64,000 nt of DNA. Origin: Phytopythium helicoides (lineage: Eukaryota > Oomycota > Peronosporomycetes > Pythiales > Pythiaceae). The DNA is taken from assembly GCA_024867545.1 (NCBI GenBank), contig JANFNE010000001.1:806001-870000 (forward strand), in the 5' to 3' direction. Below are positions 7,166 to 12,400 of this stretch, in pieces. Both the position numbers and the translations under genes were made by a program. How positions within the stretch are numbered: the stretch's first letter is position 1; each line of letters opens with the position of its first letter. The notes below the pieces were generated by a model. The model saw only the letters and a program-made list of their open reading frames with translations. It had not been told where the DNA came from and did no database searches.

Positions 7166-7440
7166 TAGGAAAGTAACCTCAGTGATAAAAGCACTCTTGA
7201 AGCAGCAATTTTGAAGAGCACGGTTCTAGATACCGGATAACGGTAGCGAACTTTGTACATCCGGTACAAGATTTTGTGCAAAAGGGCTCGGGTTATGATA
7301 GAGTAGTACGGTGTATCCTTGCGTCAGCAGGAAAATAAAATACTTTCCCGCGGCAGTATTTTCAAAATAGCGATTTTGCGCACGGCTGGCAGCCTTTCAT
7401 TCTTCAAAAGCACTCGCAGGGCTCAAGCAAACGGTTTGGT

Positions 7441-10400
7441 ATGGCGGCTGGTAGAAATATGCACGCGGACGGCGAGGAGCACGGGCAGGAGCAGCCAGAC
7501 GACGGCGACGGCAATCAGCACGACGGCGATAAGCAACAGGGCGGCGAGCAGGGAGACCCGGGCGGCGAGCAGGGAGACCCAGGCGGCGAGCAGGGAGACC
7601 CAGGCGGCGAGCAGGGAGACCCAGGCGGCGAGCAGGGAGACCCAGGCGGCGGCAGCGTTCTCCCAAGTGGCGCGGTCATCGAAGCCAACGATGCAAATGG
7701 TGGCAGTGACCCTGAGCAAGGAGACGACGTGAGCAGCGAGCAGCCAAGCGACACAGACCAGGATGTTGCAGTCAACGTTGGCGGAAGTGTGCACCAGGCT
7801 GACGCGGACAACGAGCGTCGAGGCCAGAGTTCGAGAGCTGCGGATCAGCACACCAGCTCAATGGACCATGGGGCGCGCACACAGCGGAGAAGCCTTGCTC
7901 TCAAGCGACCCGTGTCTGACAGTATTGAAGGAGAAGACAGGTTTGCTCAGCGTGTGCGGTCTTCCTCAGTTGACGACACTGTGCATAGTGCCAGGGCTGC
8001 GTCACAAACTGTGATACCGGATGCCAGTCGTCTTATCCCGGACAGCAGCAACGACCAAGGCACAGATGACGGTGATCGTGATGAAGATATGGGGTCAAGT
8101 GAGGCAAGTGACAGCGATGAAGACTACGAAGACGATGACGATCAATCTGGATCCAGTTCTCGTTCAGAGCAAGCAGCACAATCGGACACTGATGATTTGA
8201 TACCGGACGACGATGATTTGATACCGGAATCCGAAGAGGCGGATCACCGGACAGAGGAAGAGCTGGATGAGCTGCTTGGTGTCACAGATTCACCGAGTGG
8301 TTTAGATGGAGCGTTTCTCGATGGGTTTTCTCGGCGGTTCAAGTCGTGGGATGCATTTCACTCCGCATTGGCAGATTTTTGCAACAATAGCTACCAGCTC
8401 TTCCCAATCCGCACGACGACGTCAGTTTCCTCTCGCAACAAGAAGGCGAAACACCCATTCCCAGAGAAGTACGATTGGTATTGCAAGACGCTCATGTGCA
8501 CTCACGGAATAAAACAGCAGCGTCGAGGCCAAGGTTCAAGAACCCACCGATTCGTACGCTTCACGTCCTGCACAGCGAAGGTGAATGCGACGCTGACTCG
8601 AGGCGAGGATGACAGTTACTACGTGTTCGTAAAGGCGTCCGGGCGTCACAACCACAACGTATCAAAACTGCTGCATGAGTACTACGCTGAAAACAGATCC
8701 ATTCGAGACCCTGATCTGCTGAAGACAGTTGCTGAGATGCGAGCGTCGGGCTCGCATGCGAAGGGAATTTTAGCTTTTTTGAGGAAAAAGACAGGTATGA
8801 TTCCTCCTTTTCCCTATCAATGCTGTGTTGGTCTTTAATTGATTATGGATGCTGTAGGAAAAAAGTGTAAGCTTCGAGACGTTCACAATATCCTAGCACG
8901 TCAAAGAGCTCAGCAGCAAGCTGTACCTGATGAGGAGCGTGTGGAGAATCTGCTTCGTGAGTTTTGTGATGCAGATGGAAATGATGCTGTCATATTTGTC
9001 GACAGCTTATCGAAGGTCGCTCGTTTGGTTGCCTTCCAGAGCTCGCAAATGAAGCGGCTGTTCCGCTCTTTCCCGGAGGTTGTGATGGTTGACTCAACCC
9101 ATGGCACAAACATCAACGGATACAAGCTCTTCAGTTTTGTTGTTCACGACATCTTTGGACATGTACGCAGTAATACAATATTTGATACCGGATGCTCATT
9201 GTCTGATCCCGGATGTCTTTTCGTGCCTTTTTAGGGCCAGTTCGTTCACCACGCATTGTTGGATGGTGAAACAAAAGCAAACATGCGTCTAGCAATCCAC
9301 ACATTCAAGGAAAACAACCCAGAGTGGTCGCGCATTCGAGTGATTGTGACAGACAAAGACTACAAGGAAAAAGATGTGTTCAAGGAGGAATTTCCGCAAG
9401 CTCGTCAGCTCCTCTGCAAGTTCCACGTTATTGAGTACCTGAAAAAGCAGGCAAGTCAAACCGTGTGGCAGTTTTTTTGTAGTGGCGATGCTAATCATTT
9501 GTGGAAATAGGTGAACAAACTAGTGAAAGGGACTTCCAAAGAAAAGAAGCTATTAAAAGCGGTGATGATGGCGTTAGTCAACGCAGAGTCAAGCGAAGAG
9601 TACGATCGGCAAAAAGAACTGGTGCTGCAGCTTGTAGGCGGCAATGTCGAACACCCACTCTACGACTATTTTTTGCGAAATTGGGACAACATCCAGGACG
9701 AATGGGTCTCGTTCAAGCGCGGTAATGTTCCCCATCTCGGAAATGACACGAACAATCGAGTCGAGTCAAAGTGGGGCAAGCTCAAGCACACAGTTAAGCC
9801 GACGCACAAGCTTGATGAGGTCATATCCACACTAATCATTCTGCAAGAGTGGGCGGATGATGATTACGTCTCGGAATTTGTAAAAGTTGGCACGCGACTT
9901 TTGCCTGCTGGAGATGATCCTGAGCTTGCCGTGTTGGTCAATTTCCTCAGCCAGTACGCGTATGATCTCACAGCCCCCGAATATCGCTTTGCACTAGTAG
10001 CAGATGACACATACAAGATCGAACGAGCTACTAGTTCTGTTGCTGTGATAGCAAACACGAAAAGCGGACACCGGCACACGATACAGCTGCAGGTGAGTTG
10101 TCCGGGATCAGATTTTGTTTTATTTTGTATTTGAAAATGTTTGGTGACTCAGTGATTTTTGTGCAACTGTTTGCAGACCAACCGTTGCAACTGCTTGTTC
10201 ATGCAGACTTTAATTCTTCCGTGTCGACATGTGTATTTCTACCGTCGAGTATCGAACTGTGGAAGCATTTTACCACCACTTCATTGCATTGAGCAGCGCT
10301 GGTCGCGTCTCAACCCGGTGAACAACCTGAATATCGGAGTAGTTCAGGCTACAGGTGTGCGTGTTCGACATGTCGAGTCGAAGCCGTTGCGTCAGCTCAC

Positions 10401-12046
10401 AGAGAGTGAGCGATACATCCAGACAAAGGCGTTGATGGAAAAAATCTCGGACGCCATGCGACTGCAAAGCACAGAAATGTACTGCAAGATGTATGAGCAG
10501 CTTGAAGCTTTTCACTCGTGTGTTGTGAGCGGAGAAGTCCCACGCATTAGTGTTAACGACTTTCCTTCTCTGTCTCAAATTACTGTTGGTGGCACGCAAC
10601 CATCTCAAGTTTCAATAATTGGTATAGAAAGCGACGACTTCGAGAATTCGAGCTCACAGAATCTGATCCCGGACACACAATTTGAAATACCGGACGCTTC
10701 TACGCCAGCGGCAGGTGACAGCAGCATCGAGGTATCATCTTGTGTTACTCCCTCGTATCGATTAGCTAGTCCTGCAAAGAGTTCCCGCGGCCAGAGACGC
10801 AGAAAACGAATAGCAGATCGATCTGCGATGCTGAAAAAGGTCCAGGAGTTGTCATTTCAAGTGCGCCATGGAAAGAAGCACCGTCCTGTTACACTCGAAG
10901 ATTTTGAAATTTTGGTTGAGAGCAAGTACTCTTACGGAACCATGAAAGGAATAGTACGTACATCTAACTGCTCGTGATGTACTTGGAGCCTTTCCATTAA
11001 CACACCATTCCCATTGACAGGTTCCCGAGCTACACATTCCACTTGTCTCTGCCCCCGGTGAAATCACAGTAGTCTCACACAACGTTGGTCAGGCACCGGT
11101 GGTGATTGACAAACTGTTGCCACTAGATGCATTGAATGCAGCGCTTCAGAGGCTGAATGAAGCACAGCTAAACCGTGCTGCTGTGGGAGGGGACCCTGAC
11201 AACTTGATTGTTCGCATCGCAAACTACGGCTATATCACCGAAAGTCAGCTTATAACACTTCGCAAGCTCTACTGGGTGGAAGCAGAGATGGAACAACTTG
11301 AAGATGCCGTTTCCTGGGCTATTGAAACTGCGGAGACTGAAATTTCGTATGCGCTCTTCAACGACTACGCGATTGACTCAGGGGTAAGTACCACAATTTA
11401 TGATACCGGACAACAAAATCTAATACCGGATGCTCTATCGCAGAACGATGTGACGGCTAAATTGCAACAGATGTGTCTGGGCAACTACATGGTTGGCATC
11501 GAGACATTGAAAGGTTCTCAATTGCTCAGCTTCCGCCGAGACGTGTGGCTAAACACGACTTGTGTCGTCGCAGGAATGTTTTTCTTGCAGTCAATGTTTA
11601 CTGACCTTGGTGTCGTTAATCCGAGTTATTTCGAGTTCAAAGATTTAACCAAGCAGAAAGAGCTTGCTGGCGCGTACGGAGCGTTCAACAGCGACCGAAA
11701 TCGTTTGATTGGGGTCCTGAACATGGACAACGAGCATCATTGGGTTGGCTACTACTATTCTGGGATTGTGTGCAAGGTGTTTGATCCACTCCAAGAATCA
11801 GGGCGCCTCGACTTACTCAAGTCTAGCTTGGCTACTGTTGTGGAGCCGCAAATTCCGTGGCACAAGGGGGACTTTCACTACGTGACACTGAATGACTGTG
11901 TGCAGACTGATGGATCATCATGCGGGGTGTGGTGCCTTGTTGTGCTCGAGCTACTGCTTCTCGGAGCCGACTGGAACGATTGCCTGCATGACTTCATCCC
12001 GCAGCTTCGCCTTCGTCTTTTGATGAAGTGCATGCGCTCGATGTAG
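7441..12046 (+). CDS. MULE transposase with SWIM finger and C-terminal Ulp1-like protease domain
   Basis: Seven exons join in frame: 7441-8794, 8858-9162, 9235-9450, 9511-10092, 10177-10953, 11021-11383, 11444-12046, giving about 1,399 residues. The third intron has a GC donor; the others are GT-AG. Order of regions: acidic low-complexity N-terminus with five GEQGDPG repeats (about 34-68); FAR1/WRKY-like C-C-HxH region (about 295-425); DDE core with D in VVMVDSTHGTN (about 529), D in VIVTDKD (about 592) and E in NNRVESKWGK (about 710); CKFH between the last two; SWIM finger CNC...CRH (about 823-840); serine-rich linker; and a C48/Ulp1-type cysteine protease with H in NEHHWVGYY, D in FDPLQ, and Q..C in VQTDGSSCGVW. 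The last intron (60 nt) has no stop and could be retained. Transposition enzyme; the protease role (SUMO-like deconjugation) is inference from the family. Confidence 0.88.
7540..7644 (+). repeat. Five tandem 21-bp units encoding GEQGDPG
   Basis: Five near-perfect 21-bp direct repeats in the first exon of the transposase, encoding a Gly/Glu/Gln/Asp/Pro heptapeptide. Units differ only at one position of the first copy (cccgg versus cccag), so the array looks recently expanded or homogenised. Confidence 0.93.
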
Positions 12047-12400
12047 TTGGTCATAATTTCTTTGAAATGCAATCGGAAGAGTGTGCTTGACAAGTGTCTA
12101 CTTGACCTGTTCTTGTCACGTGATTTAATACCGGACGTACCAAACGCATACAGATTCCTAATCATGATTTTGCAAATACTGTTTATAGAGGTAGTTTACG
12201 CAGAGATGCTCGCCTTGGTTATATTCCTCTCTCTTCGTCCCACTTTGTTGCTGACAAAGCCGATACAGCTTTGAATTTCACCGTGAATTTCTGAATTGTG
12301 CGCTTTAAATTGTCCGGTATCAGTAACACCAGCCAATTTTGAATGGCCGGGGAACCCGGCATTGGCGCGGTAGATGGCCACAAAAACCTCCATTTCTACA

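Follow-up and report, generated by a model that had tools for sequence, protein, structure and literature searches.

Transposable elements of the En/Spm (TNPA sites) and Ac types carry many short binding-site copies per element, clustered near the ends. In the VANDAL elements of Arabidopsis, as far as described in the papers on the anti-silencing VANC proteins, VANC21 binds the motif YAGTATTAY in noncoding parts of VANDAL21, VANC6 binds another motif, and these targets have spread by tandem repetition (PMC5735166, PMC10398659). Here, we describe an array of repeated sites in a Mutator-like element (MULE) of the oomycete Phytopythium helicoides, located in a 64-kb window (the whole stretch of DNA that was analysed; contig JANFNE010000001.1, positions 806,001 to 870,000) of a 49-Mb genome of 100 contigs. 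The site is enriched in the element, stands symmetrically at both ends and is specific to its family, and other MULEs of the same genome carry motifs of their own. This partial generality of self-motifs among the MULEs of one genome is a new result; among the listings of an open-licence library, we saw no paper describing arrays of this kind for MULEs of oomycetes.

Sites repeated along a Mutator-like element

The exact 9-mer GATACCGGA occurs seven times in the window, every time within the element. The initial annotation had counted fifteen sites with a 9-bp core; this number holds for the degenerate core T[A/C]CCGGA, which all fifteen share and which is preceded by A in 14 of them, and not for the exact 9-mer. 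A sixteenth core match, at 9071, lacks the preceding A and was excluded from the list. The pattern [GA]AT[AC]CCGGA gives 13 matches, all within the element and none in the rest of the 64 kb. Conservation extends upstream: 13 of the 15 sites have T at -5 and 13 have T at -3, and the bases of CACA (-12 to -9) occur in 10, 10, 11 and 11 of them, respectively, which lengthens the site to about 21 bp, CACAAWNTYTGATMCCGGAYG. The element, its borders and the sites are the following (window coordinates):

7216..12334, plus strand: Mutator-like element of 5119 bp, with target-site duplication (TSD) and inverted end sites
7207..7215, no strand: left TSD AATTTTGAA, the same 9-mer at both ends
12335..12343, no strand: right TSD AATTTTGAA, a perfect 9-bp match to the left one
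7229..7237, plus strand: 5′ terminal site GATACCGGA, 13 bp inside the end
7260..7266, minus strand: second 5′ site, facing the first
8013..8042, plus strand: site pair in exon 1, 21 bp
8199..8228, plus strand: site pair in exon 1, 21 bp, DDLIPDDDDLIPE
9184..9213, plus strand: site pair in intron 2 (72-bp intron), 21 bp
10101..10109, minus strand: single site in intron 4
10665..10694, plus strand: site pair in exon 5, 21 bp
11402..11430, plus strand: site pair in intron 6 (60-bp intron), 20 bp
12127..12135, plus strand: site in the 3′ noncoding end
12313..12321, minus strand: 3′ terminal site, inverted, 13 bp inside the end

Ten of the sites form five head-to-tail pairs with spacings of 21, 21, 21, 21 and 20 bp, exactly as first described; since the conserved site is itself about 21 bp long, these pairs correspond to abutting sites. 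Three pairs are located in exons and two in introns. Altogether, six sites are coding, five are intronic (in three of the six introns) and four lie in the ends, with densities per kb of 1.4, 12.3 and 7.8, respectively, so that the distribution through exons, introns and flanks announced in the initial annotation is confirmed, as is the inverted copy that begins 13 bp inside each terminus, at the cuts beside the TSD. The 9-bp duplication AATTTTGAA on both sides falls within the 8–11 bp expected for a MULE; with the right end shortened by one base, a 10-bp reading (CAATTTTGAA) is obtained. Terminal inverted repeats (TIRs) of MULEs are often long but may be absent; that of the window element is imperfect and only about 22 bp long, the motif making up most of it. 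The element is intact and single copy, its sole DNA match in the genome being itself.

Chance and composition were rejected as the origin of the sites by shuffles, permuted motifs, random placements and a genome-wide pair scan. The seven exact copies of GATACCGGA in the window compare with 0.16 expected, and none of 100 shuffles gets to seven; the result is less striking at one mismatch (17 copies, 13 of them within the element, versus 7.91 expected, with 2 of 100 shuffles getting to 17). When the end motif was named beforehand and up to one mismatch was allowed, 11 internal copies were found, whereas 200 permuted motifs gave 1.23 on average, none of them reaching 11, and host density predicts 0.29. 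Five pairs at 20–22 bp were never obtained in 100000 random placements. Across the 49 Mb, RATMCCGGA-N8-14-RATMCCGGA has four matches, all in this element (the fifth pair falls outside the pattern), and the reversed control has none. De novo 8-mer scoring also sets only the window element apart from hosts, with a score of 9.1 versus a maximum of 5.2 in 15 host windows and of 6.97 in 200 generated sequences; a score of 10.1 for the MULE locus L028 is probably due to a 451-bp tandem array with tRNA genes.

The element encodes one transposase, whose main features are listed here:

7441-8794, 8858-9162, 9235-9450, 9511-10092, 10177-10953, 11021-11383 and 11444-12046, plus strand: exons of the transposase gene, with hand-chosen splice signals and an open frame
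8299..8793, plus strand: N-terminal C..C..HNH zinc domain, WRKY-GCM1-like, candidate site reader
11444..12043, plus strand: C-terminal Ulp1/C48-like protease region (HWVG..FDPLQ..GSSCGVW by eye, as in the relative P0001)

The gene comprises seven exons and six tiny introns (1399 codons, no internal stop). All four open reading frames (ORFs) of at least 150 amino acids in the element are parts of it, and no other gene was found. A MULE-type transposase domain is detected at window 8956-9435 (PF21056 and PF10551, above cut-off), and the relative P0003 bears the name MULE transposase domain. The C..C..HxH ligands of the WRKY-GCM1 type are present, HNH in all eight rows of alignment A1 and each cysteine in seven of the eight. 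Ulp1/C48 Pfam matches occur in P0001 (PF02902, 1.5e-4), L033 and L030; exon 7 of the window gene alone has no Pfam match, the motif resemblance being by eye, and no sequence match in PDB. A VANC-type gene (DUF1985/DUF287) has no Pfam match in the element's ORFs of at least 150 amino acids, a scan that left out exons 2 and 3 and that a split small gene could escape.

Some other features of the locus can be mentioned. Intron 3 (window 9451-9510) seems to begin with GC (GCAAGT..AG). Exon 1 contains a coding minisatellite (window 7540-7650) of 21-bp units (GGEQGDP), whose period is that of the site pairs and whose sequence is unrelated to them. The element lies about 50 bp beyond the stop of a TRAPPC8/Trs85-like gene. 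The Vps52 gene of the window agrees with an oomycete host: its closest named relatives come from Nothophytophthora (72%) and Phytophthora (70–71%), and unnamed proteins reach 89%.

Motifs of related elements in the same genome

Two MULE family listings of the genome gave 45 and 66 matches; we fetched 19 loci besides the window element, 15 from a protein search and 4 from the longer family lists. A scan of viral contigs revealed no relative. Thirteen of the 19 loci contain a dispersed motif of their own: TCATGGAT in L022 and L023 (two copies, 98% identical), GCCCGAAY in L024, TACAGGAT in L025, CTGGAT in L026, L030 and L036 (weak in the latter, where it rests chiefly on one intron), CCAGGAT in L027, GCGCCTTTA in L031 and L032 (two copies, 94%), and CACTAC types in L033-L035. 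The searches used on the 19 loci found no motif in L028, L029, L037, L038, L039 and L040.

In a cross table, the window motif is counted 16 times in its own element and 0–2 times in each of ten relatives, and each motif is found chiefly within its own family; the motifs were picked on the same elements, so that the table shows family specificity and is not an independent test. Its TCATGGA row discriminates weakly, since L023 has 4 copies, other elements have up to 3, and 30 kb of host DNA contain 9; TCATG pairs are specific (10 in L023, 1 in L024 and 0 elsewhere). Scans with paired patterns gave 24 matches for ATCCAG-N5-ATCCAG, of which the elements of L026 and L030 contain 10 (none in the control), and 17 for TCATGG-N5-TCATGG, 6 of them in L022/L023; with a control of 5, the latter pattern is mildly specific. 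CACTAC showed no pairs at 10–12 or 20–22 bp. In the transposase tree, in which L028 was excluded as too short, L032, L039 and L040 are absent and the motif labels are our own assignments, loci with like motifs group broadly, L027 (CCAGGAT) branching among CTGGAT loci; some nodes are weak. The motifs of the window element and of its related clade can be aligned by eye as T[AC][CA]N-GGAT.

Seven relatives have an intron at one shared position of the protein, and six of them carry their own motif in it, in three spellings: CTGG-type repeats in L026, L030 and L036, CCAGGA-type in L027, and CATGA-type (TCATGG read on the opposite strand) in L022 and L023, with only one intact in L023. One noncoding place thus bears each family's spelling. 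The repeats are mostly 11 bp apart. The motif of L025 was not found in this intron; three copies are present in a later noncoding stretch instead. The introns of the window element are at other protein positions.

Five TSD-bounded relatives (L024, L030, L033, L034 and L035) have their motif 14–15 bp inside both ends, inverted; the TSD of L024, made up of T only, carries less weight. The end motifs recur internally with a mixed outcome, judged against 200 permuted motifs. The result is clear for L034, where 3 exact copies (0/200) and 5 copies at one mismatch (3/200) were counted, and for L035, with 1 (8/200) and 8 (0/200), respectively. It is fair for L030, with 2 (0/200) and 5 (8/200), and weaker for L024, with 1 and 4 (4/200 in both cases); the end 9-mer of L033 has no internal enrichment (0 exact; 2 at one mismatch, 125/200). 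The search for TSDs with the motif given did not yield convincing ends for L022, L023, L025, L026 and L032. A search for ends independent of the motifs recovered L024, L033, L034 and L035, found neither the window element nor L030, and pointed at L039 (2855-6555) to an element with near-identical terminal repeats of 24 bp or more and an 8-bp TSD. The end sequence of the latter shows no internal recurrence (best 4, matched by 9 of 40 control pieces; for the window element, best 11, 0 of 40), so that arrays are not common to every MULE here, even with clean terminal repeats.

The initial annotation had interpreted the pair spacing as two helical turns, with dimers on one face of the DNA. Spacings close to whole turns are indeed observed in the window element (20–21 bp), in the related clade (11 bp) and in L024 (10/20 bp), but helical phasing fails in the CACTAC clade (24/27/30 bp). 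Among 39 spacings from five loci (L022 being omitted as a copy of L023, and copies not being independent), 28 are within 1 bp of 10.5, 21 or 31.5, and the best-fitting period is 11.76. Strict helical phasing is thus unsupported as a rule.

Some of these loci have further peculiarities. In L028 (319-3998), MULE fragments neighbour a tandem array of nine equal-scoring tRNA genes, one every 451 bp, and in L029 (7176-9536) one of four, about every 760 bp. In L022 (2394-3579), the 5′ part of the MULE copy is spanned by an inverted duplication of 1.2 kb that is almost perfect (99.5%); no inverted self-match is present in the fetched stretch of L023, the copy 98% identical to it. The intron of L023 homologous to that of L022 (4374-4447) is open in one frame inside a 753-aa ORF and could be coding.

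Possible roles of the sites

Our best reading, drawn from sequence comparison and in our view rather probable, is that the repeats serve as binding sites for the transposase that the element itself encodes, which would keep the element expressed through self-recognition. The initial annotation had proposed a distributed transposase-binding array or a self-marking system; the fixed-distance end sites, the internal excess and the motifs of 13 of the 19 other loci are consistent with this proposal, in which the binding and the marking stay putative. Transposase binding is suggested by the end sites and by the zinc domain, a candidate reader with a putative DNA-binding-type fold; a function of the internal sites in self-recognition and expression, not in cutting, is suggested by their spread over the whole body and their highest density where coding constraint is least. 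The WRKY-GCM1-like domain near the N-terminus would read the site of about 21 bp. The single site observed at a fixed distance from each end would mark the cut point, and the other 13, in introns, noncoding ends and tolerant acidic coding stretches, would let the protein coat the element in cis. In the manner of VANC on VANDAL elements, this coating may maintain transcription despite silencing by the host, and the Ulp1-like protease at the C-terminus is a candidate effector. Since related MULE families keep their own motifs, we infer that protein and sites would co-evolve, each array with its own transposase, and that families would not activate each other. We tentatively extend this, as a possible but doubtful generalization, to oomycete MULEs in which, independently of plants and of 5-methylcytosine (5mC), one transposase fused to a SUMO-type protease would coat a family-specific array across its own exons and introns against silencing, the array being rewritten in place as specificity shifts, which would produce orthogonal DNA-reader codes in one genome.

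A role in transposition only appears to us rather unlikely. The end sites would then be the substrate, and the internal ones enhancers, docking sites, or decoys limiting transposition as copies rise. Internal or subterminal transposase sites exist in Ac, En/Spm and P elements, and the end sites are at a fixed distance from the cut in the window element and five relatives. Moreover, MURA is described as binding the Mu TIRs (PMC3310237). However, copies are present mid-body, within introns and exons and beyond the end regions, and the window element, being single copy, offers nothing visible for copy counting to act on in this genome. It is improbable that a host protein binds the sites, either to silence or to use the element: intron and end sites could recruit a host repressor, but motifs differ between families and the motif stands at the cut ends, two features that one would not expect a host factor to follow. 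Neutral tandem duplication, leaving minisatellite debris without function, is very improbable. The pairs can be viewed as tandem units, exon 1 also harbours the 21-bp minisatellite, and L024 and L033 have long regular arrays; yet the sites are far apart, in differing contexts, on both strands and at both termini, and the same intron has different motifs in different relatives. Finally, selection on the peptide LIPD is scarcely credible as the source of the exon copies and was rejected as sole cause, as the initial annotation had anticipated: the six coding copies are read in one frame (VIPD, LIPD, LIPD, LIPE, LIPD and EIPD), but nine of the fifteen copies, in introns, in ends and on the minus strand, are non-coding, all six IPD/IPE peptides of the transposase are written by the DNA motif as ATA/ATC-CCG-GAN with no other synonymous codons (a codon use that follows from how the copies were found and has no separate evidential weight), and one of the two other frames would place a TGA stop on the usual flank.

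Comparison with described systems

The window element shares with En/Spm and Ac the many short site copies per element; it differs from them, as the initial annotation had pointed out, by copies that are not clustered at the ends and run throughout the body, exons and introns included, from 7229 to 12321. Galileo also has several transposase (THAP) sites per element, but it is described as a member of the P superfamily with sites in long terminal repeats (PMC3688188). The resemblance to maize Mu lies in a MULE transposase, MURA, that recognises a motif near each end, and in target duplications of 9–11 bp; the maize site is described within terminal repeats of 100–500 bp (PMC3310237), whereas the terminal repeat of the window element is little beyond the motif and is accompanied by 13 internal copies.

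The VANDAL elements, as presented in the VANC papers, are likewise MULEs with short (8–9 bp) family-specific motifs, often in tandem and diverging between related families, and in both systems short motifs are repeated along the element, using introns and terminal regions (PMC5735166, PMC10398659). In VANDALs, these motifs are described as read by a separate VANC protein acting on DNA methylation, the VANC21 sites being noncoding; in the window element, a separate VANC gene was not found, and the motif is also present at both cut ends and in coding exons. The Phytophthora species examined in one study have N6-methyladenine (6mA) and no detectable 5mC (PMC6211444), so that, as far as those species are a guide, the chromatin step would have to differ from that of VANC. 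The several related families of this genome, with their related but different motifs (TACCGGAT, TCATGGAT, TACAGGAT and CTGGAT), make protein–DNA co-evolution directly readable and a domain-to-motif code testable in vitro. If our reading is true, a DNA-level signal has been written into coding exons. The comparison suggests that the motif of the cut ends and that of the body can be identical, and that distributed transposon self-marking, experimentally known in Arabidopsis VANDALs, recurs where cytosine methylation is undetected.

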